Source of the DNA: Xanthobacteraceae bacterium
GTDB taxonomy: Bacteria > Pseudomonadota > Alphaproteobacteria > Rhizobiales > Xanthobacteraceae
DNA length: 64,000 nucleotides
Assembly: GCA_029266425.1 (NCBI GenBank)
Contig: JAQSWY010000001.1
Span: 62,001-126,000, forward strand
Direction of reading: 5' to 3'
Each line of letters opens with the position of its first letter. The stretch's first letter is position 1. The translations under genes and the position numbers were made by a program. Shown piece by piece: positions 47,209 through 64,000 of this stretch. The notes under the pieces are model-generated. The model did not search any database. It was not told the DNA's origin and saw nothing but the letters and a program-made list of their open reading frames with translations.

Positions 47209-47251
47209 GACAGGTGGGGGAGGGTAGGAACCCGAACCGACGGCGGGGCGA

Positions 47252-48888: not shown

Positions 48889-48913
48889 GGGGTGGTGCTC
48901 TGGGGGCGTTTGC

Positions 48914-48950: not shown

Positions 48951-49052
48951 CTGAAGCAGGACGACGTCTTTTCCTCCCCGCAAACGGGAGGCAATAAAGC
49001 AGAAGGGCCGGCTTGCGCCGACCCCTCCACCACTTGCCCCCGCAGGCGAAAA

Positions 49053-49685
49053 TCAGTGCTGGATATAGACCGTCGCGCCGACCCGGACCCGGTCATAGAG
49101 GTCCATCACGTCGTCATTGGTCATGCGGAAACAGCCGGACGACACCGCCTGGCCGATGGTCTCCGGCTCGTTGGAGCCGTGAATGCGGTAGAGCGAGGAG
49201 CCGAGATACAGCGCCCGCGCGCCGAGCGGATTGTCGATGCCGCCGGGCATGTAGCGCGGCAGGTCGGGGCGGCGCTTCAGCATCTGCGCCGGTGGCGTCC
49301 AGCCCGGCCATTCGGCCTTGCGCGAGACCGACTTCACGCCCGACCAGCGGAAGCCGTCGCGCCCGACGCCGATGCCGTATTTCAGCGCGGTGCCGTTGCC
49401 CTGCACCAGATAGAGCCGGCGCTCGCTGGTGCGGATGACGATGGTGCCGGGCCGATACCGCCCCTCGAACGCCACGGTCTGGCGCGGGATCGGCGAGCCG
49501 GAATAGCCGAGGCCGCGGCGCGGGCCGTTGCCGAAGTTCGAGGGCCGGAAATCGGCTCCCGTGAACAGCGCGATGAATGGATTGTCGGTACTTTCGCGGG
49601 CCATTGCCGGCGCTGCCCCGGCAAGGCTTACACTCGCGATGAATGCCGCCACGGCAAGCTTCGTCAGTCGCATCGTCAGCCCCAT
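49053..49685 (-). CDS. L,D-transpeptidase (YkuD/ErfK family)
   Basis: The 210-residue exported protein has a signal peptide ending at APAMA. The YkuD catalytic motif is IHGSNEPETIGQAVSSGCFRM, with the nucleophile near Cys185. It makes 3-3 peptidoglycan cross-links or attaches proteins to the wall. ATG 49673 (MRLTKLAVAAF) is an alternative start. Many paralogues of this size exist in Rhizobiales. Confidence 0.92.
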   Translation of the reverse strand: MGLTMRLTKLAVAAFIASVSLAGAAPAMARESTDNPFIALFTGADFRPSNFGNGPRRGLGYSGSPIPRQTVAFEGRYRPGTIVIRTSERRLYLVQGNGTALKYGIGVGRDGFRWSGVKSVSRKAEWPGWTPPAQMLKRRPDLPRYMPGGIDNPLGARALYLGSSLYRIHGSNEPETIGQAVSSGCFRMTNDDVMDLYDRVRVGATVYIQH

Positions 49686-50056
49686 TTTTGACGTCCGATC
49701 GCCTTATTGGCCCCGGCCGCTGAATGCTCGATGAACCGCCCGCTCGTTCATCGCACTCCCCCGGCCGCGAGGCGGCCCTGATGCGCGTGGCTTGTGCGGG
49801 TGGCTTCCGCGAAGGAAACAAGCAAGGGGGAGTATTGCGGCGGAATACAAACAATGCGTTGACGTTCGCGTGACGGGGCAGCGACTTGGCCGCCAGTGCG
49901 GCCTTCCTGCAACAGGTGGGGGTAGCGGGGAGGGTGTTTTGCACGGGCAACCTTCGAGGCCGGCATTGCCGGACTCTCAGGAGGTCGCTTTCAGAAGAAC
50001 AGCCTCATCCTGAGAGCGAGCCTCGAAGGATGCTCATGTCAAGCGCCGCCACAATC
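49686..50056. other. 371-nt intergenic region upstream of the L,D-transpeptidase
   Basis: It contains PAL-B copy 7 at its far end. The 49690-49900 part should hold the transpeptidase promoter. No gene is seen. Confidence 0.5.
49951..50032. repeat. PAL-B palindromic repeat, copy 7
   Basis: A shortened copy that lacks part of the left inner box (ACTCTCAGGAGG) but keeps both outer arms. Confidence 0.75.
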
Positions 50057-50509
50057 TCAACGCCAAAGCCCGAACTCGGCCCATTTCTCCTCGGGGATCG
50101 GGCCGATCACCTTGTAACGGAAATCGGTCGCGCTCATGTGGTCCGGGGCGAGGGTGCAGGCGAAGCTGAAGCGGAACCATGTGTCGCCGAGGCGCAGCGC
50201 GCCGCCATCGCCGGTCACCTTGTCGCCGGTGACCTTCGGCGCCGCCGCGGCGTCGATCAGCACACGGTCGGTCTTCTTGTAGTCGGCGTCGCGACCCAAA
50301 GCCTTCATCGCGCTGAGGTCGCACACCTGCGAGATCCGCTCGGCCGGATCGAGCTTCATCAGGCTCTGTTCCAGCTTGTCGGCGGTGTTGCCGCGGCTCT
50401 TCGCCGATACGGGGGCGATGCTCGCCGAGACAAGCATGGCGGGCAGCGCCAGCGCACCGAGCGCGGCGGCGAGCAAGACGAGGCGCCGTGCGGGATTGAA
50501 GTCGACCAT
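50057..50509 (-). CDS. DUF930-domain exported protein
   Basis: About 150 residues: a signal peptide (ARRLVLLAAALGALALPAML, ending near SAKS) and a DUF930 domain with KLDPAERISQVCDLSAMKAL, PDHMSATDFRYKVIGPIPEEKWAEFGLW and two cysteines that could pair. ATGs at 50524 and 50551 are alternative starts. The function of the family is unknown. Confidence 0.8.
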   Translation of the reverse strand: MVDFNPARRLVLLAAALGALALPAMLVSASIAPVSAKSRGNTADKLEQSLMKLDPAERISQVCDLSAMKALGRDADYKKTDRVLIDAAAAPKVTGDKVTGDGGALRLGDTWFRFSFACTLAPDHMSATDFRYKVIGPIPEEKWAEFGLWR

Positions 50510-50628
50510 GGCTATCCGGACCATCGGTGCATCCGAGCACCGGTAATCCATTTCGGCAAACGAGAAAACCCCCGCGCAACGTCAGGTCGGCGGGGGATCG
50601 CAACGGGTGCGGAGAGGTGGCCTATGCC

Positions 50629-50850
50629 TCAATAAGGCCGCGAACCGGCGCGGCTGCGCACCCGGCGCCCCGGCCCACGCAAGGCTTTGACCTTCCCCCA
50701 CAGGCGCGCCACCAGATACGGAACCCAGAGGGGCAATTGCGAATAGGGATGCCCGGTCGGCAGTAGCACGCCGTGATAACGCGCGCGCCCAGCCTCGAAA
50801 CGGGCTCGGCGCGCGGACATCGGCTCCGGGTAACGTGTCCAGCTCGTCAT
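50629..50850 (-). CDS. Small basic hypothetical protein
   Basis: The 73-residue, Arg-rich protein starts MTSWTRYPEPMSARRARFEAG with GAGGTAG upstream and ends RSRAGSRPY. A mildly hydrophobic middle (PLWVPYLVARLW) is present. No family is recognised. Confidence 0.45.
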   Translation of the reverse strand: MTSWTRYPEPMSARRARFEAGRARYHGVLLPTGHPYSQLPLWVPYLVARLWGKVKALRGPGRRVRSRAGSRPY

Positions 50851-51292
50851 GGCAGCTACCTCGTCATCGCGTTGAGACAGCGGGTTCATGCGGTCATCTA
50901 TAGTGTGCATCGCAACATGACGAAAAATTGGCAGGAAAGCGAATTTTCGCAAGTCGAATTCTAGGGGCGTACCAACAATCTGCTCGATTTACCGGCAAAT
51001 CCAACCTCAATGGCGCGTAATTGCCTTGGCGCAACGGAAGTTCCGTGTGCGGCGCGGTATAAGAGTGCTGCATTGCGCTGCGTCATGATACCGGCGCCCG
51101 GATTTTTCCGGATGGTGGCAGGGTTTTCCGGGGCGCCGCTGTAACGGTATTTTGAAAAGCCGGGATTCGCGGATTCCAGGAATGGCCGTCGTCCCCGGCC
51201 TTGTGCCGGGGATCTCGATTTCCGGACAGCGCATCGGAGGCCGAGATGGCCGGCACGAGGCCGGCCATGACGGTGAGAATGGCGCGCGCCCC
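50851..51292. other. 442-nt intergenic region at the left edge of the prophage-like segment
   Basis: Apart from PAL-C copy 4 at its right end nothing recognisable is seen. It is somewhat more AT-rich around 50915-51000. Confidence 0.4.
51188..51271. repeat. PAL-C palindromic repeat, copy 4
   Basis: A full copy of the GGCCTTGTGCC sub-type with CTCGATTTCC in its centre. Confidence 0.8.
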
Positions 51293-51517
51293 TCACTCCG
51301 TCTCGTCGCCGTCGCGTACGCTTTCGGCCAGCTCGTCGAATTCGCGCTGGATGCGGCGTATGTGGGTGCCGAGCTCGTCGAGCCGCTCGGTCAGTTCGTC
51401 GATCGGCTGAGCGCCGAGATTGTCGATGCCCCACACCGCGTCGGCGATGGCGTCGTCGATGGAGAGGATGAGCTCGCTGAGCCGGGTCATGCCTGCCTCG
51501 TTCCGGATGATCGTCAT
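51293..51517 (-). CDS. Small acidic coiled-coil protein
   Basis: The 74-residue protein (MTIIRNEAGMTRLSELILS to RDGDETE) is predicted almost fully helical with heptad-like leucines (DELTERLDELGTHIRRIQREFDEL). It starts 8 nt after the preceding gene ends. No family is recognised; the position suggests a phage early protein. Confidence 0.6.
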   Translation of the reverse strand: MTIIRNEAGMTRLSELILSIDDAIADAVWGIDNLGAQPIDELTERLDELGTHIRRIQREFDELAESVRDGDETE

Positions 51518-51525
51518 GTTGATGG

Positions 51526-51846
51526 TCACGCGGCGCGAAGGCCGCGGCGGGTGAAATGGGTGGAGTGGTGCGCGGCCTCGCCGGCGATGCCGTAGCGCGC
51601 GGCCTCCTCGCTCAGCGCCTCGGCGGCGTCGGCCTCGTCGAGCAGGGCGATGAAATCCCCGGCGGGCGAGGCGATATCCTGCGCATAGGCGGCGATGGCT
51701 CGATCGAACCCGGCCTCGTCGAACCGCCCGGACTGCCGCGCCGCCTCCGCGCAGATACCCCGCATCGCACGCGCCCAAGCCTCGTTGACATCGACGACGC
51801 GGCGCTTGAGCGCGGGGAAATCGAGCTGCGGCACGGGCGCCTCCAT
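51526..51846 (-). CDS. Hypothetical early protein of the prophage-like segment
   Basis: The 106-residue protein (MEAPVPQLDFPALKRRVVDV to RRGLRAA) is acidic and helical, with no recognised family. Its promoter region carries two of the four operator-like sites matched to the S24 repressor, so it is probably the first gene of a repressed leftward operon. Confidence 0.6.
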   Translation of the reverse strand: MEAPVPQLDFPALKRRVVDVNEAWARAMRGICAEAARQSGRFDEAGFDRAIAAYAQDIASPAGDFIALLDEADAAEALSEEAARYGIAGEAAHHSTHFTRRGLRAA

Positions 51847-51866
51847 CAGGGTTGGTGGAGATAAGT

Positions 51867-51881
51867 TTGCGCTATGAGAAA
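51867..51881. promoter_or_regulatory. Repressor operator-like site O1
   Basis: TTGCGCTATGAGAAA matches the shared pattern TTGCgcnnTGAGcAA and lies 20 nt upstream of the 106-residue gene. Confidence 0.45.
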
Positions 51882-51900
51882 ATTAAGTCAAGCGAGAAAA

Positions 51901-51915
51901 TTGCTCTGTGAGCAA
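51901..51915. promoter_or_regulatory. Repressor operator-like site O2
   Basis: TTGCTCTGTGAGCAA is a perfect inverted repeat with 6-bp arms, extended by A and T on either side. It is the best match to the pattern. Confidence 0.55.
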
Positions 51916-51961
51916 TTAAAATGGTTAACCACCGTCACCCCACAGCCCTCACCCCAGAGCC

Positions 51962-52060
51962 GTCATCCCGGACGGCCGCAGGCCGAGCCCGGGTCGTAGG
52001 AAGGTGTTGATCGGGACTTCACGCGATCCCGGCTCTCCGCTTCGCTGCGGCCGGGATGAC
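51962..52060. repeat. PAL-A palindromic repeat, copy 13
   Basis: A full copy between the repressor 3' end and the early operon promoter. Confidence 0.85.
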
Positions 52061-52096
52061 GGCTGTGGGATCGGGGGGAGGGGAGCAGAGCGCCAC

Positions 52097-52825
52097 TCAC
52101 CGCCGCGAGGCGAACACCACGACGTGCACCGAGAGCACCTCGGCCTGCTCGAAGCTGATCTCCATCTCCGGATTGTACTGCTTCACGATCAGCTTGGTCG
52201 GCGTGCGCTTCACCAGTTCCTTGATGAAGCCTTCCGGCGCATCGGCCTCGTCGTGCGGGCGCAATTGCACGATGACGTCGTCGCCGATGCGGGCGGAGAG
52301 GTTCGGGTTCACCCAGGCGAGCTGGCCGGGTTTGAAGGACGGCACCATGCTGTCGCCGGTGACGTAGACCGCATAGGCATTGGCCGCGTTCTTGAGTTCC
52401 GGCGGGCAGCCGACCATGTCGAGACGTTCGCCGTTGAACTTCATACGCCCGTCACTGCCCCCTACCGCAACACCATAAACGGGAATTTGCCGCTCCGGCA
52501 ATTCCGGCGCGGGGATAGGCGCAGAGATGTTCGCCTTCACCGGCGACTGCCGGCGCAGCGGCACCACATTGTCCTGCACCAGCGCCGAGGCAGGCGCGCG
52601 CATCTGCAGCGAGACCGGCGCATCCGCACCGAAGAACGCCTCCATGGTCGGCACCCACACCAGTTCGATGGTCTGGTAGCCTTTGCCCTTCTCGGGCTTC
52701 AGCATCTTCGAGATCGCGGCCTCGCCGATGCCGAGCAGATGCGCGAGCTCGCGCTTAGAGCCGCGGCCGCGCTTGGCGAAGCCGGCCGCCATCCATGCGC
52801 GCAACTGGTCCTGGATATCCTGCAT
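52097..52825 (-). CDS. Prophage-type repressor, HTH plus S24 peptidase domain
   Basis: The 242-residue LexA/CI-like protein has a helix-turn-helix near 23-42 (SKRELAHLLGIGEAAISKML) and a C-terminal S24 autopeptidase with nucleophile Ser159 in VTGDSMVPSFKPGQLAWVN and lysine region KLIVKQYN. RecA-stimulated self-cleavage would lift repression. ATG 52825 is used; a longer frame runs through the opposite promoter region. Four operator-like sites flank the gene. Confidence 0.9.
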   Translation of the reverse strand: MQDIQDQLRAWMAAGFAKRGRGSKRELAHLLGIGEAAISKMLKPEKGKGYQTIELVWVPTMEAFFGADAPVSLQMRAPASALVQDNVVPLRRQSPVKANISAPIPAPELPERQIPVYGVAVGGSDGRMKFNGERLDMVGCPPELKNAANAYAVYVTGDSMVPSFKPGQLAWVNPNLSARIGDDVIVQLRPHDEADAPEGFIKELVKRTPTKLIVKQYNPEMEISFEQAEVLSVHVVVFASRR

Positions 52826-52859
52826 GGCGTCATCTTTGCGCTGTGGGCAAAAAATCATA

Positions 52860-52874
52860 TTTCTATGATCGCAA
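52860..52874. promoter_or_regulatory. Repressor operator-like site O3
   Basis: On the minus strand TTGCGATCATAGAAA resembles O1. It overlaps the likely promoter of the repressor gene (TATGAT just downstream). Confidence 0.4.
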
Positions 52875-52893
52875 ATATTCCCTTGACATAAAT

Positions 52894-52908
52894 TTGCGCC
52901 TTGAGCAA
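52894..52908. promoter_or_regulatory. Repressor operator-like site O4
   Basis: TTGCGCCTTGAGCAA differs from O2 at four central positions. It lies just after a rightward -35-like TTGACA (52883-52888), in the position expected for the spacer/-10 region. Confidence 0.5.
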
Positions 52909-53026
52909 ACTTTTTCGCATCACGCCGGTTCGGAACGCCGCGCCCCGCATCCTCGAGCCCACCATTGAACACCCAAGCCCGGCCTGCCCGCGCACGCCGT
53001 CGCTCGCTCCATTGAAGGAACAAAAC

Positions 53027-53215
53027 ATGAACTTCATGCTCCAGCACGCGCCCGCCGGCCAGTCGGCGCGCTGCTTGAACATCCTTCGAGGCTCGCGAGG
53101 CTCGCACCTCAGGATGAGGTCGCACTTGCAGACACAACCTCATCCTGAGGTGCCGCCGCAGGCGGCCTCGAAGGATGCCCACCCCGTGCGTTCCCTGCGG
53201 AGGGCCGGCCGATGA
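53027..53215 (+). CDS. Small ORF with in-frame PAL-B insertion
   Basis: A 62-codon frame opens at ATG 53027 behind GAAGGAAC, encodes MNFMLQHAPAGQSAR, then crosses a whole PAL-B repeat in frame, and resumes with HPVRSLRRAGR before overlapping the next ATG (ATGA). It may be a short early phage gene enlarged by the repeat, or only a coupled leader. No family is recognised. Confidence 0.4.
   Translation: MNFMLQHAPAGQSARCLNILRGSRGSHLRMRSHLQTQPHPEVPPQAASKDAHPVRSLRRAGR
53080..53177. repeat. PAL-B palindromic repeat, copy 8
   Basis: A full copy inside the small ORF at 53027-53215; its length keeps that frame open. Confidence 0.85.
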
Positions 53216-53883
53216 CCGAACCCCATCGCCGCCCGTCCATGCCGCGCGTGCTCTGGCTGGAGCGCGACCGCGTGCCGCCGCCGCCTCCGCCGCCCGAGCC
53301 GCCCGAACCGCCGCTGCTGTTCCGGCCGAAGAGCCCGGTGCGCGAGAGGCTGTTCCCCTCGGCGCGGCCGATCGCCCGCGGCATCGTGCGGGTGCGGCAG
53401 GGCGAGGGGGTGCGCCTCGAGCTGCGCGTCAGCCCGCCTCCGCCGCGCCCCGTGCCGGATGAGGACGACGCGCCGCCGCTGCACCACGCCGGCACGCTTG
53501 GTCGCGACTGGCTGCGCATTGGTGCGCGGCGCGGCCGCGGCAAGGTGGCCGTTCCGCGGATCCTCGCCGCGGTGGCCGCGCATTACGATGTCGAGGTCGC
53601 GGAGATCCTCGCCCATCGCCGCACCGCGCATCTGGTGATCCCGCGCCAGGTGGCGATGTATCTCGCCAAGGCGCTCACCGGCCGCTCGCTGCCCGATATC
53701 GGCCGGCGCTTCGGTGGGCGCGACCACACCACCATCCTGCACGGCGTGCGCAAGATCGCGGCGCTGATGCAGCGCGACGCCGAGCTGGCGGAGGTTGTGG
53801 CGGAGCTGACGGCGCATCTGGTGGGGGGCGATCGGCGTGAACATCCCTCAATGCCCACGCCAAGCGTGGGCACCTCAGGATGA
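53212..53883 (+). CDS. DnaA domain IV-like DNA-binding protein
   Basis: The 223-residue protein has a Pro/Arg-rich first 110 residues and a DnaA C-terminal (domain IV) fold at about 113-190, with the DnaA signature GGRDHTTILHGVRKI at 168-182. No AAA+ domain is present. Stand-alone copies occur in alphaproteobacterial phages and may bind DnaA boxes to direct or block replication. The last 14 residues and the stop codon lie in PAL-B copy 9. Confidence 0.85.
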   Translation: MTEPHRRPSMPRVLWLERDRVPPPPPPPEPPEPPLLFRPKSPVRERLFPSARPIARGIVRVRQGEGVRLELRVSPPPPRPVPDEDDAPPLHHAGTLGRDWLRIGARRGRGKVAVPRILAAVAAHYDVEVAEILAHRRTAHLVIPRQVAMYLAKALTGRSLPDIGRRFGGRDHTTILHGVRKIAALMQRDAELAEVVAELTAHLVGGDRREHPSMPTPSVGTSG

Positions 53884-53942
53884 GGTTCATCTCCAAGCAC
53901 AACCTCATCCCGAGGTGCCGCCGCAGGCGGCCTCGAAGGATG
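53842..53942. repeat. PAL-B palindromic repeat, copy 9
   Basis: A full copy overlapping the 3' end of the DnaA-like gene, with a diverged left arm (CCCTCAATGCCCACGCC). Confidence 0.8.
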
Positions 53943-54037
53943 CTCGCCAGCGCGCCGTGCCGGCCACTCTCCCCCTCAACCCAGCCCTCTCCCGGACGGG
54001 GAGAGGGGGCGACGCCGCGCGCCCCGGGAGCCCACCC

Positions 54038-54895
54038 ATGAGCCATCCCTGGATGCCCCTCTATGTCGCCGATTATCTCGCCGATACCGGCCATCTCAGC
54101 ACCGCCGAGCATGGCGCGTATCTGCTGCTCATCATGCATTACTGGCAGAACGGCGCGCTGCCGGATGATGAGAGGAAGCTCGCGCGCATCTGCCGCCTCG
54201 CGCCCGAGGAGTGGGCGCTGGCGCGGGAGACGCTCGCCGGGCTGTTCGGCGAGGGGTGGAGCCACAAGCGCATCGATGTCGAGCTGGTCCGTACCGAGGA
54301 GCGCTACCGCAAGCGGGTCGAGGCCGGGCGGAAAGGAGGGCTCGCTCGAGCGAACGCACAGCCGCGCTCGAGCATTGCTCTAGCCGAACCTGAGCAATGC
54401 CCGACCAACCACAACCACAGCCACAAAGAGGAAGATTCCCCCGTGCCTCCTCCGGAGGCCCGGCCCCCGCGACGGGTGGAGCGCGGGGCGTTCCTCGACG
54501 AGGGCTGGCGGCCGAGCCCGGCCAATAGCGAGTGGGCGGCGGCCGAGCTCGGCGGCGCGGAGCAGGCGGCGCGCACTTTCGAGCGGTTCCGCAATTACTG
54601 GCTGGCGAAGGCGGGGAGGGACGGGCGCAAGCGCGACTGGGACCTGACCTGGCGCAACTGGGTGAACGAGGAGGTGGACCGTGCCAATCGCAACGCCCAG
54701 CGCAGCGCCTATCGCGGCCCGCAACACCAGCACGCCTCCTCCCAACATCAATCGTCCCATGACGCTCTCATTGCCGCCGTGGCTGAGCGCGTGCTTGGCG
54801 GCGATGACGGGCCATCCGCCGCGGATCCCGGCGGCGCTGGCGCTGACGTCCGAGCAGCGGCAAGCCATCGCCTGCTGCCTCGAAGAGCTGGATGA
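54038..54895 (+). CDS. DUF1376-domain phage replication protein
   Basis: The 285-residue protein begins with the DUF1376 signature (WMPLYVADYLADTGHLSTAEHGAYLLL, then HYWQNGALPDDERKLARIC). A polar linker follows, then a DnaT-like C-terminal part (WRNWVNEEVDRANR). Such proteins are replisome organisers or primosome components of temperate phages. The start at 54038 is supported by GGGAG upstream. Its last ~135 nt overlap the next gene in another frame. Confidence 0.85.
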   Translation: MSHPWMPLYVADYLADTGHLSTAEHGAYLLLIMHYWQNGALPDDERKLARICRLAPEEWALARETLAGLFGEGWSHKRIDVELVRTEERYRKRVEAGRKGGLARANAQPRSSIALAEPEQCPTNHNHSHKEEDSPVPPPEARPPRRVERGAFLDEGWRPSPANSEWAAAELGGAEQAARTFERFRNYWLAKAGRDGRKRDWDLTWRNWVNEEVDRANRNAQRSAYRGPQHQHASSQHQSSHDALIAAVAERVLGGDDGPSAADPGGAGADVRAAASHRLLPRRAG

Positions 54896-55295
54896 GCGCC
54901 TCGCCCCGGCGACCGAGCGCGAGGTCGGCGCGCGCTTTGCCGCGCTGCTGCTCGCCTTCCCGGCGCAGCCTTCGAGCGAGGCCGCGGCCAAGGTGCGGGC
55001 CGGCGCCTATTTCGAGGCGCTGGCGGGCGAGCCGGCCTGGGCGATTGCCCGCGCCTGCCGTCGCTGGCTGCGCGGCGAGGTGGAGGGGGTTCTCGCCTCC
55101 GCCAATCTCGCCTTCGCTCCCAGCCCGCCGCAGCTGCGCCGGCTGGTCGAGGCCGAGACGCTCCCGGTGCGCCACCAGGCGGCGCGGCTGGATAAGCTGC
55201 TGCGGGCGGAGCCGGAGGGCGGGGCCGCGCTTTCCGGGGAGCGGCGTGCCGCGATGGCGGCGCGGCTGAAGGCACTGTCCCGCTCGCTGGCCTGA
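54759..55295 (+). CDS. Possible phage helicase-loader-like protein
   Basis: About 178 residues, all helical. The segment EPAWAIARACRRWLRGEVEG...FAPSPPQLRRLVEAE resembles a pattern common in phage helicase loader/inhibitor proteins, but the match is only suggestive. It overlaps the DUF1376 gene by 137 nt. An ATG at 54681 would extend the overlap. Confidence 0.55.
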   Translation: MTLSLPPWLSACLAAMTGHPPRIPAALALTSEQRQAIACCLEELDERLAPATEREVGARFAALLLAFPAQPSSEAAAKVRAGAYFEALAGEPAWAIARACRRWLRGEVEGVLASANLAFAPSPPQLRRLVEAETLPVRHQAARLDKLLRAEPEGGAALSGERRAAMAARLKALSRSLA

Positions 55296-55329
55296 AGTCC
55301 TTCATCGCAAATCGAGGAGTGCCGAGCGG

Positions 55330-55932
55330 ATGGCGAAGCCTAGCCACGCCTTGCTTGCCGACTATGTGGCCGACTATGTGCGCGAGCGTGCGGACAGAAG
55401 CACGGCCCGCTGGGACCATGACCGCCGCGCGCTCGACGCCCCAAGGGGGGCGATCACGCTCGATGACGTGGTGCGCGATCCCTATGACGGGACGCGGATC
55501 CGGGTGACGCGCAATGTGCGCGGCGACCCGCTCGGCGCGCTGTGGGCGCGGCGGCAGATCGACGAGCACCAGTTCATCGCCGGCCGGCACTGGCAGCATC
55601 TCACCGAGGAGGCCGGCGCCGGCGGCCTGCGCGCGCTCGATCTGACCCGCGAGCGGGTGGATGGCGGGGTGCGCTCGTTCGACGGCCTCACCGACCGCCA
55701 GCGCGACGCCGCCCGCGCGCTGCGCCGGGCCGAGCAGGACCTCGGCGTGCAGCCGGCGCTGATCGCGCGGCTCGTGCTGGAAGAGGGTCTGACCATCGCC
55801 GAGGTCGCCGACGCTATGGACATGGCGACGGCGCGGGGCCGGGACCGGCTGGGGTGGCTGCTGCGGATGAGCCTCGACGAGCTGGCGGTGGGGTTCGGGT
55901 TTGCGGAGCGGGCCGGGTGTCGCTCGGGGTGA
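55330..55932 (+). CDS. Phage-type hypothetical protein with C-terminal HTH
   Basis: The 200-residue protein has a central LWARRQIDEHQFIAGRHWQHL segment and a sigma-region-4-like C-terminal helix-turn-helix (ARLVLEEGLTIAEVADAMDM). This organisation occurs in phage proteins thought to act as late regulators. It is cotranscribed with the replication genes; the function is inferred only from its shape and position. Confidence 0.6.
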   Translation: MAKPSHALLADYVADYVRERADRSTARWDHDRRALDAPRGAITLDDVVRDPYDGTRIRVTRNVRGDPLGALWARRQIDEHQFIAGRHWQHLTEEAGAGGLRALDLTRERVDGGVRSFDGLTDRQRDAARALRRAEQDLGVQPALIARLVLEEGLTIAEVADAMDMATARGRDRLGWLLRMSLDELAVGFGFAERAGCRSG

Positions 55933-55936
55933 GCAA

Positions 55937-56026
55937 CCTTCGAGGCCGCTTCGCGGCACCTCAGGATGAGGTCGTCTTGAGGAAAACCTCATCCTGAGGT
56001 GCGAGCGCAGCGAGCCTCGAAGGATG
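55937..56026. repeat. PAL-B palindromic repeat, copy 10
   Basis: A full copy that starts 5 nt after the preceding stop codon. Confidence 0.85.
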
Positions 56027-56188
56027 CTGGAGTAGAGCCGTCTCCCAAACTTCCAATCCGACTGGACCGCGCGCGGGCGGGCAAGCAGACTGGCGGCCTC
56101 GTGCCGCCACAACCGGAATGATCGACGACGGGGGGACAGCGCCAATGGCGACGGACATCAAGCTCGACGAAGTTGACGGCAACCTGAA

Positions 56189-56494
56189 TGTTGCGGGCGA
56201 AATTACGCCAAGATGCTGAACGGGCTCGGCGGCGTGCGCGACTCGTGGACGCTCTTGGGCAACTCTGTCGAGAGCGGGCACACGGTGGTGACCGACACCA
56301 ATCTCCACGAGGACGCCGACGACCGGCCCGCGCGCAGCGAGCGGCTCGACTATGTGCTGCTCAGGGCCGGCCATCGCGCGATCCCGATCGTCTCGAGCAT
56401 CGAGGTGCTGCGCATCCAGCGCAACGGCCGGTTCATCTCCGACCATTTCGGCGTGTTCGCGACGTTCGACAGGGTGGCGCTGGTCAGCGGTTGA
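56189..56494 (+). pseudogene. C-terminal remnant of an endonuclease/exonuclease/phosphatase-family protein
   Basis: From about 56189 the frame reads NYAKMLNGLGGVRDSW, SERLDYVLLRAGH and NGRFISDHFGVFATFD, the last part of an EEP-fold nuclease or sphingomyelinase-like enzyme including the terminal SDH motif. The first two thirds are missing; upstream is an unrelated short frame (MATDIKLDEVDG...). It is a deletion remnant and is unlikely to be functional. Confidence 0.7.
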
Positions 56495-56516
56495 GTGGGG
56501 CGTTGCCCTGCTGCAG

Positions 56517-56941
<425 letters not shown>

Positions 56942-56949
56942 ACCGGCCG

Positions 56950-58053
56950 CTATTTCCGCCGCGGTTCCTCGAGGTCCTCGCCCGGCACCGGGCGGTCGGT
57001 GCGGCGGGCGGCCTCGATCGCCTCGAACAGGGTAAGCGCCGCGTTGCGCACCTCGTCCTGCAGCGCGGTGTCGGCGTCGAGATGGCGGTGGCTGGTGGCG
57101 TAGGGCTTCCAATAGCCGACATAGCGATCGAGCTCGGCGAGCCGCCCGGCGGGGCGCATGCCGATCGAGGCCATCCAGTCGGCAAGGGCGCGGCGGACAC
57201 TCTCGGTGCCCTCGGCGTCGCCATGGACGACGACCGCGAAGTGCCGGCCGGCGAGATGGTGGGGGTAGTGCCAGCCGCCGAGCTCGATGCGCTTGGCCTT
57301 TGCCGCGTCCTTGCCGTTGGTCGCGGTCGGATCGGGATTGCCGCCGTCGGCGCACACCAGGCGGTCCATCATCAGCTTGAGCGGCGATGTCGCCTGGTAC
57401 CAATGCACGGGGGTGACGATCATCACCCCGTGCGCCGCGACCCACATCGGATAGATGGCGTTCATCCAGTCATTGGTCTGGCCGAGCGAATAGTTCGGAT
57501 AGCAGGAGCAGGGCCAGTGGCAGAGCGGCGCCGCCGTGGAAAAGCAGGCCTTGCACGGATGGATGGTGCGTCCGTACTCCGAGGTGAGGCGGCTGAGGTC
57601 GAGGGTCTCGATCTCCGCCCCGCGCGCGGCGAGCGCATCGCGCGCGATCTCCATCAGGCGATAGGATTTCGACATCTCGCCAGGGCAGCTGTGCTCGTTG
57701 CGCGGCGAGGCGACGATGAGGAGCAGCCGGGTCCGGCCCGAGGGGTTGTCATGGCGCCGCCGGGCCGCCTCGATAGCGTCCCGCGTGTGGATCCAGTCGA
57801 GCGCGAGCTGATAGGCCGGATCGGCGTAGCCCTTGCCGGCCGGCCGCGTGTGCGGGCTTTTGCGATGGTGCGAATAGGCATCCCACGCCGCATGCGCGAT
57901 ATCGTCCAGCTGCGGGCCGAGCACGTGGAACGCCGGATCGCGAAAGCGTTCGAGGAAGCGGCGGCGAAACTCGGTCTCGTTGAGCCGCGTCTCCGGGGTG
58001 CCGGTGCGCGGTTCGGTCTCGTCGTCGGCTGCTTCGCCGTTTTCTGAGGACAT
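56950..58053 (-). CDS. Flavodoxin/NADPH-dependent FMN reductase-family protein with cysteine cluster
   Basis: The 367-residue protein has a helical N-terminal extension of about 120 residues and a flavodoxin-like domain: phosphate loop LLLIVASPRNEHSCPGEMSKS, VMIVTPVHWYQATSPLKLMMDRL and HFAVVVHGDAEGT. A cysteine-rich loop CKACFSTAAPLCHWPCSC sits where iron-sulfur flavoproteins bind a cluster. ATG 58053 has GGAGG at correct spacing. It is probably a redox enzyme; the substrate is unknown. Confidence 0.85.
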   Translation of the reverse strand: MSSENGEAADDETEPRTGTPETRLNETEFRRRFLERFRDPAFHVLGPQLDDIAHAAWDAYSHHRKSPHTRPAGKGYADPAYQLALDWIHTRDAIEAARRRHDNPSGRTRLLLIVASPRNEHSCPGEMSKSYRLMEIARDALAARGAEIETLDLSRLTSEYGRTIHPCKACFSTAAPLCHWPCSCYPNYSLGQTNDWMNAIYPMWVAAHGVMIVTPVHWYQATSPLKLMMDRLVCADGGNPDPTATNGKDAAKAKRIELGGWHYPHHLAGRHFAVVVHGDAEGTESVRRALADWMASIGMRPAGRLAELDRYVGYWKPYATSHRHLDADTALQDEVRNAALTLFEAIEAARRTDRPVPGEDLEEPRRK

Positions 58054-58145
58054 GGGAACCCTCCACCCTACGCCGGACCCGCACGTGCGCAACAACGCAG
58101 CCGGCGGCTCATGGTTCGGGGCGGGGAGGGGGCGCGCGGCTGCAG

Positions 58146-58178
58146 CATCCTTCGAGGCTCGCTCGCGCTCGCATCTCG
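58146..58178. repeat. PAL-B half copy (12)
   Basis: Left half only (CATCCTTCGAGGCTCGC to GCATCTCGGA), cut off before the centre. Confidence 0.7.
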
Positions 58179-58228
58179 GAGCCGGACCGGCGCTTGGTCG
58201 GCGGGAGGTGAAGCGGGCCATTTCCGCC

Positions 58229-58328
58229 GTCATGGCCGTCCCCGGGCTCGACCCGGGGATCATCCCGGCCATCCACGGTTGATCCCTCGTCACGGACGTG
58301 GGTCCCCGGGACCAAGCCCGGAGATGAC
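58229..58328. repeat. PAL-C palindromic repeat, copy 5
   Basis: A full copy with the arms GGGCTCGACCCGGGGATC and GTCCCCGGGACCAAGCCCGG. Confidence 0.8.
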
Positions 58329-58364
58329 GGCTCATCTGGTGTATCGCGAGCCAGACCTGGATCC

Positions 58365-58490
58365 ATGGCTCGGCAAAAATCGCCGCCCGGTCAGCCATCG
58401 AGCATCCCGGGCGGCAAGTGCCCCCTTTGCGAAGGATGCAAAAAGGACGATCGGCATCCTGCGCGTGCAGATTTGACCGGACAGAGATGA
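58365..58490 (+). CDS. Possible 41-residue cysteine protein
   Basis: A short frame encodes MARQKSPPGQP, then KCPLCEGCKKDDRHP and ends DLTGQR. The CxxCxxC cluster with flanking basic residues could bind a metal. No convincing ribosome site precedes ATG 58365, so this is tentative. Confidence 0.25.
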   Translation: MARQKSPPGQPSSIPGGKCPLCEGCKKDDRHPARADLTGQR

Positions 58491-58550
58491 CGCTTGCATG
58501 TCGGCGGGGAAGCGCAGGTCCGGCGCCGAGCATTGAGCTGGGCGCCCCTT

Positions 58551-58646
58551 AGAAAAGGGGCCGCTCACGCGAGCGGAGCGGCCCAAGTCTAGGGAGGAAA
58601 CGCCCAAGGAGGGCATGCGGCGCGACGCCAATCGCGCTGCACTGCA
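58551..58646 (-). ncRNA. Candidate small RNA with anti-Shine-Dalgarno loops
   Basis: On the minus strand a CTTGGC/18 nt/CATAAC promoter-like pair precedes a stretch with stem GCCC/GGGC (58614-58602) presenting loop UCCUU, then an unpaired CCUCCC (58597-58592). A 9-bp GGGCCGCTC/GAGCGGCCC terminator stem ends in TTTTCT (58556-58551). CU-rich loops of this kind bind ribosome sites in alphaproteobacterial regulatory RNAs. Strand and ends are inferred by eye. Confidence 0.4.
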
Positions 58647-58751
58647 GCGTTATGTCATTGCAGCGCACAAAAGCCAAGCGGCATGGCCCCGTAAATTCAC
58701 ACGATTGCGATACCGGGTGGGTCGGAGCGGTCGGGGGGCGTCCTGTTTCAG

Positions 58752-58782
58752 CATCCTTCGACGCTCGGCTTTGCCGGGCACG
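58752..58782. repeat. PAL-B half copy (13)
   Basis: Left half only (CATCCTTCGACGCTCGG to GCCGGGCACGGG), truncated at the centre. Confidence 0.65.
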
Positions 58783-58806
58783 GGTGGCTCCTGGATCAAA
58801 TGTCGC

Positions 58807-58888
58807 GTCATGGTCGGGCTTGTCCCGGCCATCTCGGCCTCTGACGCGCTGCCCTGAATCGAGATCCCGGCACGAGGCCGGGGATGAC
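58807..58888. repeat. PAL-C palindromic repeat, copy 6
   Basis: A hybrid copy: left arm of the CGGGCTTGTCCCGG type, right arm of the CACGAGGCCGGGG type. Confidence 0.75.
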
Positions 58889-58931
58889 ATTGATTGGGGA
58901 GTTATCGGTCGGCCTCCCAGGACGACGTGGT

Positions 58932-59201
58932 TCACGCCGCGCGTTCGGCGAGGAGCTGGCGCAGCATGAGGGCGGCGAACTCGATGTCGGTCCTGTGGCC
59001 GCTCTCGGCCCCCGCCCGCAGGGCGTCGGCGACGCTGTGGACGCTCTCGCCCCGGTGGTTCACCGGAAACCGGCCGTCAATATAGTTCGATGCGTCGGAC
59101 AGGGTGTTGATGGGACGCCCGCGATTCAATGGGATCGGCTGCGGCAGTCTCGCATGCCAGTAACGCGGCGGATGATTGGCCTGCCGTCGTGCGTAAAACA
59201 T
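58932..59201 (-). CDS. Small hypothetical protein
   Basis: The 89-residue protein (MFYARRQANHPPRYW to RQLLAERAA) has a clear GGAGG 7 nt before ATG 59201. The second half (SVHSVADALRAGAESGHRTDIEFAALMLRQLL) is helical. No family is recognised. Confidence 0.6.
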   Translation of the reverse strand: MFYARRQANHPPRYWHARLPQPIPLNRGRPINTLSDASNYIDGRFPVNHRGESVHSVADALRAGAESGHRTDIEFAALMLRQLLAERAA

Positions 59202-59418
59202 GGTGAGCCTCCGTCGAATATGGCACAGCGCCGCCGGAGCGGAGGTCGGGACGCCTGCCGGAGAGCGGTTGGCTTTCCGCAATTCCAGTGAGCTCAATCG
59301 CTATACGTGGGGACAACGTCTCGTGGGCGCCGGTAGTTCCGGCCCGTATCCGTGAGGGGCGGGCGCACTGGCCCGTTGCTTGGAGCTGCTGGCGACTGAA
59401 GGGGTCGCCCGGCTTCAG

Positions 59419-59515
59419 CATCCTTCGAGGCTCGCTGGCGCTCGCACCTCAGGATGAGGTCGTTCTTTTAGCACGCCTCATCCTGAGGTGCCGCCGCAGG
59501 CGGCCTCGAAGGATG
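59419..59515. repeat. PAL-B palindromic repeat, copy 14
   Basis: A full, near-consensus copy (centre CACCTCAGGATGAGG). Confidence 0.85.
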
Positions 59516-59641
59516 CTCAAGCCGACGCACTGTCGGTAAGATGATGCAGCACAACGCCCGCCGGATACTCGCGGCAAGCCGCGTTTCACTAATCATGCAT
59601 GCGTTATACAAGAGTAGAGAGCGGCCGCATCGAAGCACATG

Positions 59642-59656
59642 GTAACCATTCTTTAG
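59642..59656. promoter_or_regulatory. Degenerate CtrA-like box upstream of tadE
   Basis: GTAA-N7-TTAG differs at one base per half from the CtrA consensus TTAA-N7-TTAA. It lies 64 nt before tadE, and Tad pilus genes are often CtrA-controlled. Confidence 0.3.
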
Positions 59657-59719
59657 GAAGCAATTTGCAACTGCTATCGAATAGTTTTCCATGGAGTTGT
59701 TCCAATGTAGGGGCGCTCC

Positions 59720-60175
59720 ATGGTCGCTCTTCTCCCGCCGAAACTCCGCCGATTTGCCCGCCGCAACGGGGTCAAGGATGAGCGCGGCGTCGCGGCGATC
59801 GAGTTCGCCATGGTGTGCCCGATCCTCGTCATGCTGCTGCTCGGCATCATCTGCTACGGCATCGAGTTCGGCATCATGCATTCTGTGCAGGAGCTCGCCT
59901 CCACCGCGGCGCGGGCCTCGGTGGGCGGGCTGTCGGACACCGAGCGCGAGAGCATCGCCCGCTCCACGGTGGCGAGCGCGCTGCCCAACTACCAGCTGCT
60001 GCGCGCCGACAAGTTGACCGTGAACTTCTCGGTCGATCCGGCCAACGCCCAGCTCTATCGGGTGAAGCTGCGCTACGACCCGTCCTATATCGGCTTCCAG
60101 GCCTTCTCCGGCCTCATCGCCATCGCCAACGAGCCGTTCGAGCGCGATGCCGTCGTGCGCCGCGGGGGCTATTGA
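59720..60175 (+). CDS. TadE-like pilus assembly protein
   Basis: The 151-residue pseudopilin-type protein has the TadE signature ERGVAAIEFAMVCPILVMLLLGIICYGIEF, with the conserved glutamate five residues into the hydrophobic helix. A small C-terminal periplasmic domain follows. It overlaps the next gene by one base (TGATG). No TadA, CpaF or Flp genes are in the window. Confidence 0.88.
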   Translation: MVALLPPKLRRFARRNGVKDERGVAAIEFAMVCPILVMLLLGIICYGIEFGIMHSVQELASTAARASVGGLSDTERESIARSTVASALPNYQLLRADKLTVNFSVDPANAQLYRVKLRYDPSYIGFQAFSGLIAIANEPFERDAVVRRGGY

Positions 60176-61875
60176 TGATCGCCCGCGCGCGCCTCGCCCG
60201 CCTCAACCCGCTGTTCGCCCGCTTCGCGCAGGACCGGCGCGGCGCGGTGGCGATCATGGTCGGCGGCTCGACGCTGATGCTTGTCGGCGCCGCCGGGTTT
60301 GCGGTCGATTTCGGCTCCTTCTTCCTGGCGCGACGGCACGTGCAGAACGCGGTGGACCTCGCCGCCATCGCTGCCGCCCGCGACCTGCCGCGCGCCCGCG
60401 CCGCGGCGGATGCGGCGATGCGCGACAACGGCATCGCCGCGCCGGAGAGCATGGCGGTCGTGCTCGGCCATTATTCGTCCGATCCCGCCATTCCGGTGGC
60501 GCAGCGCTTCAAGGCGGACGCCACCCCGCTGAACGCCGCGCGGGTCACCGCCACCAACAAGGCCGAGGTCTATTTCGGCAAGGCGCTGGGGCTCGGCGAC
60601 AGCGTGCTGGTGGGCGCGGTCGGCACCGCGGCCAATAGCGAGTTTGCAAGTTTCGGCGTCGGCTCGCGGCTCGCCTCGCTGAATGGCGGGGTCGCCAATG
60701 CGGTGCTCTCCGGGCTCACCGGCAGCTCGATCTCGCTCAATGTCGCCGACTACCGGGCGCTGGTCGATGCCCGGGTCGAGCTCCTCGGCTTCACCAAGGC
60801 GCTCGCCACCGAGGCGCGCCTCACCGCCGCGACCTATGACGACGTGTTGGCCTCGAGCGTGAAGATGCGCGACGTGATCGACGCGCTGATCGACACCTCC
60901 TCGCCGACGACCGGCACGCAGGCCGCGCTCAACGCCTCGCTCAACGCCCTGAAGGGCGGCGTCGGCAGCACGGTGAGCGTGCCGCTGAGCGCTGCGCTCG
61001 ACCTCGGCGAATATGGCGGGCTCGCGCTCGGCGAGGGGCCGGGCACCGGGGTGAAGGCGCAGCTGATGGACGTGATCAGCGCCGCCGCCGTCGCCTCCAA
61101 CGGCACGCGGCAGCTCGCGCTCGATCTCGGCCTCGCCATTCCCGGCCTCGCCAATCTCAAGGTGTGGCTCGCCATCGGCCAGCCGCCGAGCGAGAGCGGC
61201 TGGGTCACGGTCGGCGGCACCGGGGCAGCGGTGCGCACCGCGCAGGCGCGGGCGAAGATCTCCACCACGATCGCGGTCGCCGGGATCACCGGCCTCGCCT
61301 CCGTCCATCTCCCGCTGGTGGTGGAGGCGGCCTCCGGCGAGGCGAGCCTTTCCGACGTGGACTGCACCACGCCCACCGCGCCCAAGGCGAGCGTGATGGC
61401 GAAGAGCGGCGTGTTCGAGGCCTGGATCGGCGATGTCGATCTCGACGACCTCGACGATTTCACCAGGGTGCTCGCGCCGGAGCGCATGACGCTCGCCAAT
61501 GTGCTGCTCCTGGTGAAGGTGACCGGCTATGCCCATGCCAAGATGGGATCGCTGGCGCCGAGCGAATTGAAGTTCAGCGCCGCGGACATCTCCGCAATCA
61601 CCAAGAAGACGGTGCGTAGCGCGGACTTCACCACCTCGCTGACCGGCTCGCTGCTCTCCGATCTCGAGCTGGAGGTGAAGCTGCTGGGCCTCGGCCTCGG
61701 GCTCGGCCCGACCACCAACGCCATCACCAGCGCGGTCGCGGCGGCGCTGACCACGGTGACGCCGGCGGTGGACGGGCTCGTCTCCTCGCTGCTCGGCACG
61801 CTGGGCATCGGGCTCGGCGAGGCCGATGTGTGGGTCTCCGGCGCCCGCTGTGACGGCGCCGTGCTGGCGCAGTGA
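60175..61875 (+). CDS. TadG-like protein (DUF2134-type)
   Basis: The 566-residue protein has an N-terminal Tad-type helix (RRGAVAIMVGGSTLMLVGAAGFAVDFGSFF) followed by QNAVDLAAIAAARDL, then a long low-complexity Ala/Leu/Ser-rich periplasmic part with DUF2134-like stretches (ISLNVADYRALVDARVELLG). It is coupled to tadE. The pair probably anchors a surface pilus or an envelope structure. Confidence 0.85.
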   Translation: MIARARLARLNPLFARFAQDRRGAVAIMVGGSTLMLVGAAGFAVDFGSFFLARRHVQNAVDLAAIAAARDLPRARAAADAAMRDNGIAAPESMAVVLGHYSSDPAIPVAQRFKADATPLNAARVTATNKAEVYFGKALGLGDSVLVGAVGTAANSEFASFGVGSRLASLNGGVANAVLSGLTGSSISLNVADYRALVDARVELLGFTKALATEARLTAATYDDVLASSVKMRDVIDALIDTSSPTTGTQAALNASLNALKGGVGSTVSVPLSAALDLGEYGGLALGEGPGTGVKAQLMDVISAAAVASNGTRQLALDLGLAIPGLANLKVWLAIGQPPSESGWVTVGGTGAAVRTAQARAKISTTIAVAGITGLASVHLPLVVEAASGEASLSDVDCTTPTAPKASVMAKSGVFEAWIGDVDLDDLDDFTRVLAPERMTLANVLLLVKVTGYAHAKMGSLAPSELKFSAADISAITKKTVRSADFTTSLTGSLLSDLELEVKLLGLGLGLGPTTNAITSAVAAALTTVTPAVDGLVSSLLGTLGIGLGEADVWVSGARCDGAVLAQ

Positions 61876-61894
61876 GGGCTGTCCACAGGGTGCT

Positions 61895-61922
61895 TTGACC
61901 TGTCGGGTGGGGTGCGTAGGAT
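61895..61922 (+). promoter_or_regulatory. Promoter-like pair immediately upstream of a terminator
   Basis: TTGACC and TAGGAT are separated by 16 nt. Transcription would begin near 61929 and meet the terminator after about 40 nt. Confidence 0.4.
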
Positions 61923-61939
61923 TCAGAGCGTGAAGAGCT

Positions 61940-61971
61940 GCGTCCGGATGAGGAGTCCGGGCGCTTTTTTG
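61940..61971 (+). terminator. Intrinsic terminator downstream of tadG
   Basis: GCGTCCGGA pairs with TCCGGGCGC (one G-T pair) around loop TGAGGAG, followed by six T residues. Confidence 0.8.
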
Positions 61972-61990
61972 TTTCTTCTCGTCACCCGTC

Positions 61991-62091
61991 GTCATCGCGG
62001 ACGGCGATGAGCCGAGCCGGGATTGCGGGGAAGTCCCGCGCAACACCTTTTTGCGATCCCGGCTCTCCGGCGTCGCCACCGGTCGGGATGA
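61991..62091. repeat. PAL-A palindromic repeat, copy 14
   Basis: A full copy with diverged ends (GTCATCGCGG and GTCGGGATGAC). Confidence 0.8.
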
Positions 62092-62111
62092 CGGCTTGAT
62101 TTAGGTACGTC

Positions 62112-62212
62112 GTCATGCCCCGGGCTTGTCCCGGGCATCCACGACCTTGCCGCCAGGAACAACCGTGGATGGCCGGGATGATCCCCGGGTCAAGCCCGGG
62201 GACGGCCATGAC
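62112..62212. repeat. PAL-C palindromic repeat, copy 7
   Basis: A long copy: left arm CCCGGGCTTGTCCCGGG, right half containing a nested GGATGATCCCCGGG and CAAGCCCGGGG. Confidence 0.8.
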
Positions 62213-62260
62213 GACGGAATTGCTCGCTTCACCTCGCACCGACCAATAACGGGTCAGTCT

Positions 62261-62292
62261 CTGAGGCGCCGCGCAGCGAGCCTCGAAGGATG
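62261..62292. repeat. PAL-B half copy (15)
   Basis: Right half only (CTGAGGCGCC to CCTCGAAGGATG), 40 nt before the terminase small-subunit start. Confidence 0.7.
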
Positions 62293-62331
62293 CTGCAACA
62301 GCGCATGTCTCCCGCCAAAGTGAGTTCTCCC

Positions 62332-62913
62332 ATGCCTGTTCTTTCCAATGCGCGGCACGAACGCTTCGCGCGGGCGCTGGCCGATGGCGCGACGCTCGAC
62401 GAGGCGCTGCTCATCGCCGGGTACAAGGCCGGCTCCCACATCGCGGCGCGGCTCTGCGCGCGCGGGGATGTGGTGCGGCGGGTGCGGGAATTGCGGGGTG
62501 AGCCGTTCGCAGTGCCCCCACCCCAACCCTCTGATGCGCTGTCGGGAATCGAGGTCCCCGGCACAAGGCCGGGGATGACGGATCGGGGAGGGCTGGCCCC
62601 GGACTGCGAATCTGGTGCTCAAACAGGTCTTCCCATCACGGACCTACCGCGACCCCCCGCGCCCACCCGGCAATGGGTGCTCGCGCGGCTGGTCGACAAT
62701 GTCGAGCGCGCTCTGCAGCTCGGCGAGGCCGGGGGCGGGGAGACCGCCCGCGGCAAATATGACGGCAGCGTCGCCAATCGCGCGCTGGAACTGCTCGGCA
62801 AGGAGCTCGGCATGTTCACCGAGCGATCGGACAATCAGCACACGCCCCATGACATCTCGGACCAGCCGCTCACCCCGGAAGAATGGGCAAAACGCCATGG
62901 CGTCGACCGATGA
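62332..62913 (+). CDS. Phage terminase small subunit-like protein with repeat-derived insert
   Basis: The 193-residue protein has an N-terminal helix-turn-helix (RHERFARALADGATLDEALLIAGYKAG) and a helical C-terminal half (TRQWVLARLVDNVERALQL, VANRALELLGKELGMF), the pattern of Nu1/Terminase_2-type DNA-recognition subunits. About 17 residues in the middle (SDALSGIEVPGTRPGM region) are encoded by a PAL-C half. The insert is in frame and may or may not be tolerated. Confidence 0.8.
   Translation: MPVLSNARHERFARALADGATLDEALLIAGYKAGSHIAARLCARGDVVRRVRELRGEPFAVPPPQPSDALSGIEVPGTRPGMTDRGGLAPDCESGAQTGLPITDLPRPPAPTRQWVLARLVDNVERALQLGEAGGGETARGKYDGSVANRALELLGKELGMFTERSDNQHTPHDISDQPLTPEEWAKRHGVDR
62531..62579. 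repeat. PAL-C half copy inside the terminase small-subunit gene
   Basis: CTGATGCGCTGTCGGGAATC through CACAAGGCCGGGGATGAC equals the right half of PAL-C copies 2 and 6. Confidence 0.8.
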
Positions 62914-63667
62914 TCGCGCCGTGGCGTCGACCCATGAACGCGCCGTGCAGCCTCCCGCCTCGAAACCCACCCAAGCCTCGCCCACCCAAGCTTCTACGCC
63001 CACTATCGTCTGGCGCCCGCAGGAGGGCCCGCAAAAGGCCCTCGTCGATTGCCCGCTCGCCGAGGTGTTCTTCGGCGGGGCGCGCGGCGGGGGGAAGACC
63101 GACGGCGTGCTCGGCAAATGGGCGCTGAAGGAGAAGCGCTATAGAGACGACATCGCCGCCATCACCCGCAGGATCAATGGCGGCACCAATGGGCTCGCCG
63201 GCCGCAAGGCGTGGCTCGCCAAGGCGTGCCGGCTGTTCGGTGATATTCCGGTGGAGCGCCCGCAATCCACCGACGAGATCCGCGCCTTGCAGAGCGATCT
63301 CGCCGCGCTCGGCTATGAGCTCCCGGTGGATGGCGTCGACGGGCCGGCCACGGTCAATGCGGTGCGCGACCTGCAGAAGCGGGCCGGCATCCGCGTCGAC
63401 GGCATCGCCGGTCCCGCGACGCGTGCGGCCATCCGGCAGCGGCTCGAGCGTCGCGGTGCGGACGGCAAGGCGCCGGCCGACAAGACGCTGATCGATGCCT
63501 TGCGGACCCCCGAAGGCCTCGCCACCGGCGGCGGCATCCTCACCACCATATTGAGCGCCGCCTCCAGCCCCGGGCCGCTGCAATGGGCGATCGCCGCGGT
63601 GGTGGTGAGCGCGCTCGCCATCGGCATCGGCTTCTTCGTGCATCGGCTGAGGAGGGCGGAGGCATGA
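62897..63667 (+). CDS. Chimera: terminase large-subunit N-terminus fused to endolysin C-terminus
   Basis: Residues 37-82 are the start of a phage terminase ATPase (IVWRPQEGPQKALVDC, Walker A GGARGGGKT at 60-68, LGKWALKEKRY). The sequence then switches near residue 82 (about 63140) to RDDIAAITRRINGGTNGLAGRKAWL, the C-terminal end of a phage chitinase/lysozyme-type endolysin. A peptidoglycan-binding domain (about 124-182) and one membrane helix (about 228-249) follow. Both active sites are incomplete. The join is in frame, as expected from a large deletion removing the capsid and tail genes. It overlaps the terminase small-subunit gene. Confidence 0.8.
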   Translation: MASTDDRAVASTHERAVQPPASKPTQASPTQASTPTIVWRPQEGPQKALVDCPLAEVFFGGARGGGKTDGVLGKWALKEKRYRDDIAAITRRINGGTNGLAGRKAWLAKACRLFGDIPVERPQSTDEIRALQSDLAALGYELPVDGVDGPATVNAVRDLQKRAGIRVDGIAGPATRAAIRQRLERRGADGKAPADKTLIDALRTPEGLATGGGILTTILSAASSPGPLQWAIAAVVVSALAIGIGFFVHRLRRAEA

Positions 63668-63981
63668 ACCTCATCGCGCTCATCCCCTGGGAGGCTCAGT
63701 TCGTGCTCGCGCTCATTGCGCTCGCCGGGCTCAGCTTCCTCGCCTTCACCTGGTTCGGCTTTGGCGTCGCCCGCACGCTCGCGCTGTGGGGTGCGGCGGC
63801 GGCCCTCGCCCTCGCTCTCCTCTCGCGCGCATTCCAGAAAGGTCAGTCCCATGAAATCGACCGTGCAAACAGGGTGGCGGATGCCGCCATCCGCAAGGCG
63901 GGTGCGGCTCGCGCTCGCGCTGAGCGCGACGCTCTTGACGGGCGGCTGCGCGACGACGACGGCTTCCAGCGGCGCGACTAG
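63664..63981 (+). CDS. Rz-like inner-membrane spanin/holin-type lysis protein
   Basis: The 105-residue protein has two hydrophobic segments (about 13-32 and 35-56) and a charged helical tail (GQSHEIDRANRVADAAIRKAG, then RAERDALDGRLRDDD). It starts by ATGA overlap with the chimera. Position after an endolysin fragment and the nested lipoprotein frame suggest the Rz member of a spanin pair, possibly combined with a holin function. Confidence 0.6.
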   Translation: MNLIALIPWEAQFVLALIALAGLSFLAFTWFGFGVARTLALWGAAAALALALLSRAFQKGQSHEIDRANRVADAAIRKAGAARARAERDALDGRLRDDDGFQRRD

Positions 63982-64000
63982 GACGGCGTGCGCCTCGTTC
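63851..64000 (+). CDS. Rz1-like lipoprotein nested in the Rz-like gene, 3' end outside window
   Basis: In the +1 frame relative to the Rz-like gene, ATG 63851 (or ATG 63881) opens a frame with a basic start (PPSARRVR), hydrophobic core LALALSATLL and a lipobox TGGC (Cys33), followed by a Thr/Ser-rich mature part. It remains open at the window edge. A small lipoprotein embedded in an Rz-type gene is the hallmark of Rz/Rz1 lysis cassettes. Confidence 0.65.
   Translation, partial: MKSTVQTGWRMPPSARRVRLALALSATLLTGGCATTTASSGATRTACASF

Follow-up and report, generated by a model that had tools for sequence, protein, structure and literature searches.

Is a single open frame that begins as a phage terminase large subunit (TerL) and ends as a phage endolysin an established phage gene, a new host gene, or what a deletion has left behind? 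The question is raised by positions 62897-63667 of a 64-kb stretch of a Xanthobacteraceae genome (the window, in whose coordinates positions are given), which sits on contig C84 of the source genome, G000. A sequence-only reading had proposed that this frame is a terminase-endolysin chimera produced by a large in-frame deletion within a prophage, and that its product could have acquired a new role. Here, we compared the locus with that of G022, a complete genome of the same genus, and with family genomes and phage records. These comparisons make it very probable that a large internal prophage deletion created the fusion, and that we are looking at ordinary decay, with a product most likely devoid of function.

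The fused frame and its two halves

The predicted frame was borne out: it encodes 256 amino acids without an internal stop, its 5′ end overlaps the end of the terminase small subunit (TerS) frame, and its two halves find their matches separately (Table 1). Residues 25-92 match the terminase of G022 (74%, E 1.7e-28), residues 23-92 are 68.6% identical to the terminase of Pseudanabaena phage Pam5 (ON014757), and six IMG/VR viral contigs match the terminase part at 65-79%. The match to the G022 endolysin covers residues 81-256 (76%, E 1.6e-79), and the endolysin part also matches several PHROG endolysin families.

A Pfam search of the fusion returned PG_binding_1 (model positions 2-57 of 57, E 2.5e-17) and no terminase family. 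Since the terminase part gives little signal in profile libraries (phrog_979, E 0.01), its terminase identity rests on sequence matches. Its motif GGARGGGKT, which we take to be the Walker A ATPase motif of TerL, is conserved in the G022 TerL. Terminase similarity ends at about residue 82, and the fusion lacks both the nuclease domain and the remainder of the terminase ATPase. Nor does Pfam detect the Glyco_hydro_19 (GH19) catalytic domain in it; in the G022 endolysin, the GH19 match covers residues 41-134 of 315, entirely within the part lost from the fusion. A peptidoglycan-binding domain is common, though not universal, in GH19-type phage endolysins. By these matches, the fusion is the start of a Pam5-like TerL joined to the end of a GH19-type endolysin, whose foldable portion could comprise the peptidoglycan-binding domain and the C-terminal helix.

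Table 1. Coordinates of the fusion, its parts and the surrounding prophage remnant in the 64-kb window
Feature	Position	Strand	Basis or remark
Prophage remnant, including later insertions	51282-64000		Between collinear host genes; extends ~0.4 kb beyond window end
CI-like repressor ORF	52097-53182	-	Peptidase_S24 5.8e-8; phrog_4 transcriptional repressor 9.8e-22; true start probably further in
DUF1376 phage primosomal/replication protein	53837-54895	+	PF07120 9.7e-22; phrog_3992 5e-41
TerS, open frame	62332-62913	+	phrog_11494 2.5e-10; in-frame repeat element at ~62557-62580
Fusion frame	62897-63667	+	ATG to TGA, 256 amino acids, no internal stop
TerL stump, first half of fusion	62897-63142	+	Residues 1-82; presumed Walker A GGARGGGKT
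Deletion breakpoint	63143-63152	+	Identity switches from G022 terminase to G022 endolysin; exact base not fixed
Endolysin tail, second half of fusion	63153-63667	+	Residues 83-256, corresponding to residues 142-315 in the 315-residue G022 endolysin
PG_binding_1 domain	63269-63433	+	Residues 125-179; Pfam match
Probable membrane helix	63584-63640	+	Residues ~230-248; translation read by eye
Rz-like spannin gene (presumed), open frame	63664-63981	+	Position and hydrophobic N-terminus; dN/dS 0.38 vs G022
Rz1-like lipoprotein frame (presumed), nested in Rz-like gene	63851-64000	+	LTGGC by eye; continues beyond window

The parent genes are separate at the same site in a relative

In G022, the counterparts of the two halves are separate open frames on the same strand, with the terminase match at C1:1796922-1797125 and the endolysin match at C1:1739269-1739796. 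The TerL frame (L032:10665-12341, minus strand, read from 12089) is open over 474 amino acids or more, and the endolysin (L029:6267-7214, minus strand) has 315. The positions corresponding to the breakpoint (1,796,953 and 1,739,787) lie 57.2 kb apart, and the window is identical to G022 at 87% of bases in the terminase half and 82% in the endolysin half.

The G022 prophage, spanning approximately C1:1738-1820 kb, occupies the same chromosomal site as the remnant in the window but, unlike it, retains an open TerL, portal, capsid and the full-length endolysin. All collinear blocks agree in order and orientation between the two genomes: host-like genes (window 32796-50959, G022 1,820-1,838 kb), a phage early region that in the window includes the repressor and the DUF1376 protein (51282-56621, 1,812-1,820 kb), TerS and TerL (62652-63142, at 1,797 kb) and the lysis genes (63146 onward, 1,738-1,740 kb), followed by a host gene that we take from its sequence to be PPK2 and further genes (1,720-1,737 kb). 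Between 56621 and 62332, the genomes differ by insertions. The proposal of a large in-frame deletion thus finds support in separate parent genes this far apart between collinear host flanks.

Phage Pam5 resembles the window in that TerS and TerL are adjacent. Its gene order is TerS-TerL-portal-scaffold-capsid ... endolysin, shared by G022 as far as checked, and, unlike in the window, TerL and endolysin are separate, with 17.6 kb from the end of the former to the start of the latter. The G022 interval between the breakpoints contains portal (P22_portal 2e-91), major head protein (4.5e-36) and head closure (1.8e-85) genes. It also holds repeated open reading frames (ORFs) and ORFs without a family match and may therefore be longer than its ancestral counterpart; the amount lost in the window's lineage would be somewhere around 18-57 kb.

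The middle of the prophage is missing from the assembly of the source genome. Queried with the G022 TerL, G000 returned a match to query residues 1-56 only, the rest of TerL not being found; portal and capsid, which the sequence-only reading had also supposed lost and which lie between the parents in G022, were likewise not found in G000. The same portal and capsid queries each found G022 and G009, two of the three genomes, G000 being the miss. Because G000 is a draft (222 contigs, completeness 91.65%, contamination 7.51%), this absence is strong evidence, although not absolute.

The breakpoint and the likely mechanism

Compared base by base with both G022 parents, the window tracks TerL as far as 63142 (...CGCTAT) and, starting near 63145, the endolysin. 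The switch is thus within a few bases of 63140, the junction read earlier from the letters. Between and just after these points, the two parents are weakly alike, and the exact base cannot be fixed because the undeleted sequence of the source strain would be needed for this. A long shared word was considered as the cause of the deletion and rejected, as the longest exact word that the two G022 genes have in common up to 60 bases from the breakpoint measures 8 bases and does not coincide with the junction. This makes long-repeat recombination unlikely and illegitimate recombination the probable mechanism.

Descent and proposed history of the prophage

Synonymous divergence (dS) between G000 and G022 was 0.28 for PPK2 and 0.47 for another flanking host gene. 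Three of the five phage genes fall within this range (TerL stump 0.31, endolysin tail 0.45, Rz-like gene 0.35), as vertical descent predicts, and inheritance of the prophage from the common ancestor is most likely. A left-side gene named MoaA by eye and the right-side PPK2 were located in eight further members of the genus; in two of these (G010 and G011) both are on one contig, separated by hundreds of kilobases or more, and in the remaining six they are on different contigs, which gives no measure of how close they are. For the gene at the left prophage edge, these eight genomes yielded only matches of at most 35% identity. As a consequence, the integration is not datable beyond the ancestor of G000 and G022.

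We propose that a Pam5-like podophage integrated near PPK2 in the common ancestor of the window's bacterium and G022. In the lineage of the window, illegitimate recombination between poorly similar sequences would then have removed everything between a point just after the TerL Walker A motif (fusion residue 82) and roughly endolysin codon 141, and the two ends would have fallen in the same frame by chance, for which the prior expectation, by simple reasoning, is 1 in 3. The product of the resulting chimeric frame, if made, would be a terminase stump that lacks the nuclease and the remaining motor parts, followed by a lysin tail without its catalytic domain; most likely, the fused gene has no function and is being lost. 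We also count in favour of decay that a second lysin remnant in the same genome (on contig C60) has likewise decayed.

Several observations nevertheless weigh against this history. Given the draft and partly contaminated assembly, unassembled DNA could still harbour what is missing. Two of the five phage genes, TerS (dS 0.64, in an alignment that crosses an inserted repeat) and the gene after Rz1 (0.59), exceed the dS of both host genes, which leaves some residual room for separate integrations at the same site. Finally, the frame is open, and the ratio of nonsynonymous to synonymous divergence (dN/dS) of its tail, 0.41 against G022, gives no sign of relaxed constraint.

Is the fusion a working protein?

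The open frame bears on the alternative that the fusion has been kept as a new membrane-anchored peptidoglycan-binding protein that, together with the spannin-like genes, tunes cell-wall turnover or vesicle formation. The complete PG_binding_1 domain and the open Rz-like and following genes are in its favour, and there is a precedent: PMC7918800 reports a domesticated lysis module in DLP12, a defective prophage of E. coli K-12. The remnant resembles DLP12 as described there in that lysis genes outlast the rest of a defective prophage, but differs from it in that the lysin of the window lacks its catalytic domain and no effect of it is known.

The distribution of the fusion and the loss of the lysin's catalytic domain speak against retention, and divergence does not favour it. 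Between the two lysins of G022, the same alignment columns give a dN/dS of 0.40, practically the value of the tail. When substitutions were polarised by the second G022 lysin, dropping sites at which all three sequences differ, the fusion branch carried 23 synonymous changes against 33 nonsynonymous ones, compared with 14 against 16 on the branch of G022, which is no difference (Fisher p 0.65), although this test has little power because most of the divergence may predate the deletion. Moreover, approximately 2.3% of random substitutions create a stop, which leaves a frame a 27% probability of having stayed open through 56 such changes (indels not counted), so the open frame needs no selection to explain it. 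Conservation across species, as would be expected of a domesticated gene, is absent: among 391 family genomes (drawn from a larger group, one per species, with at most six candidates scored per genome at E<=1e-10), a match across the whole fusion protein was found in one, the window's own, which was also the only one with the full fusion in an earlier search of 61 genomes. The sequence-only reading had called for such a search in related genomes, and its suggestion of a new role finds no support, as these results show no selection signal beyond what was inherited.

We consider retention of the fusion as such a protein unlikely, and its more specific version, in which a catalytically dead, membrane-anchored peptidoglycan-binding chimera under phage late or terminase regulation would modulate the envelope with the spannin-like genes, quite unlikely. 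So far, there is no sign of anything that calls for a function of the fusion.

Is the fusion an artefact or an established phage gene?

A draft genome with contamination also invites the suspicion that reads from an intact prophage were wrongly joined. However, the 20-kb stretch around the frame contains no N, so there is no assembly gap at about 63140, where one had been named as a possible refutation. The longest exact word shared by the G022 parents near the breakpoint, described above, is too short to mislead an assembler, neither the removed part of TerL nor the portal or capsid gene turns up elsewhere in the assembly, and both flanks are collinear with G022. An assembly artefact is hence very unlikely.

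Outside the family, 295 of the 50,697 phage records searched match the fusion. Among the matches listed, two (H2 and H3) cross the junction, by 16 and 25 residues and at 37% and 33% identity, respectively; H3 is annotated as a glycohydrolase and H2 carries no annotation, and we take their extension into the terminase part to be due to chance. In a named genome collection, from which the records of the window's own genome were possibly excluded, 110 stretches matched a pattern with the fusion as query and none was confirmed; with the G022 terminase as query, nine loci were recovered, the best in Ancylobacter polymorphus DSM 2457. Judged by the titles listed, we found no report of such a terminase-endolysin fusion in the literature. 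The possibility that phages have an established gene of this domain order is extremely improbable, since we found nothing in its favour, none of the 295 phage records covers 80% of the protein (the full-length homologues in intact phages that would have spoken for it), all six confirmed IMG/VR loci match the terminase part only, and G022 and Pam5 have two separate genes.

Other features of the remnant and its surroundings

At the right end of the remnant, L006 5147-6413 matches the G022 lysis genes, after which PPK2 follows. A longer TerS ORF (62290-62910) is 33.2% identical to the Pam5 TerS over 92% of its own length. The gene downstream of the fusion, to which we assign the name Rz-like spannin from its position and hydrophobic N-terminus, has no Pfam or PHROG match; the frame nested in it is presumably an Rz1-like lipoprotein.

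A repeat with a palindromic core (CCCGGCACAAGGCCGGGGATGACG) occurs in seven copies with at most three mismatches in the window, against a shuffle mean of 0.00: at 62557-62580, in frame inside TerS, and at 16491, 21580, 21641, 40913, 51187 and 58866. By eye, TerS in G022 has a comparable but longer insertion close to this position. Between the phage early region and TerS lie a TadE-like gene and, beside it, a long frame (59720-61875), for which the fetched G022 stretches showed no counterpart at that place. In the G022 prophage interval, the repeated ORFs are located at L032:3480-8080 and L031:4855-11501; two carry MPMAQFRNSPPPDWGG near their start (one was tested and had no Pfam match), and five further repeats are small paralogues with signal-like starts, by eye. 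The late-gene block of the G022 prophage looks as if it were an insertion site.

The second lysin remnant of the source genome (G000:C60:16987-17894) belongs to the same family and is followed by similar lysis genes. By eye, its catalytic region is some 20 residues shorter than in the second lysin of G022, and its frame is broken near the end. Approximately 13 kb to the right of the window end is a third scrap of phage DNA (L006:18864-19541, on C84), which by eye holds an integrase-like C-terminal fragment; next to this is a piece that shares 88.8% identity with the gene following the lysis genes on C60.

Implications

The locus provides a clear example of prophage decay, in which a relative with the separate genes at the same place shows which kind of segment was removed and where. 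It also carries a warning for annotation: the frame could be named a terminase or an endolysin, even though it lacks the catalytic parts of either. Should evidence emerge that the product is made and used, the frame would represent a new gene born from a prophage deletion.
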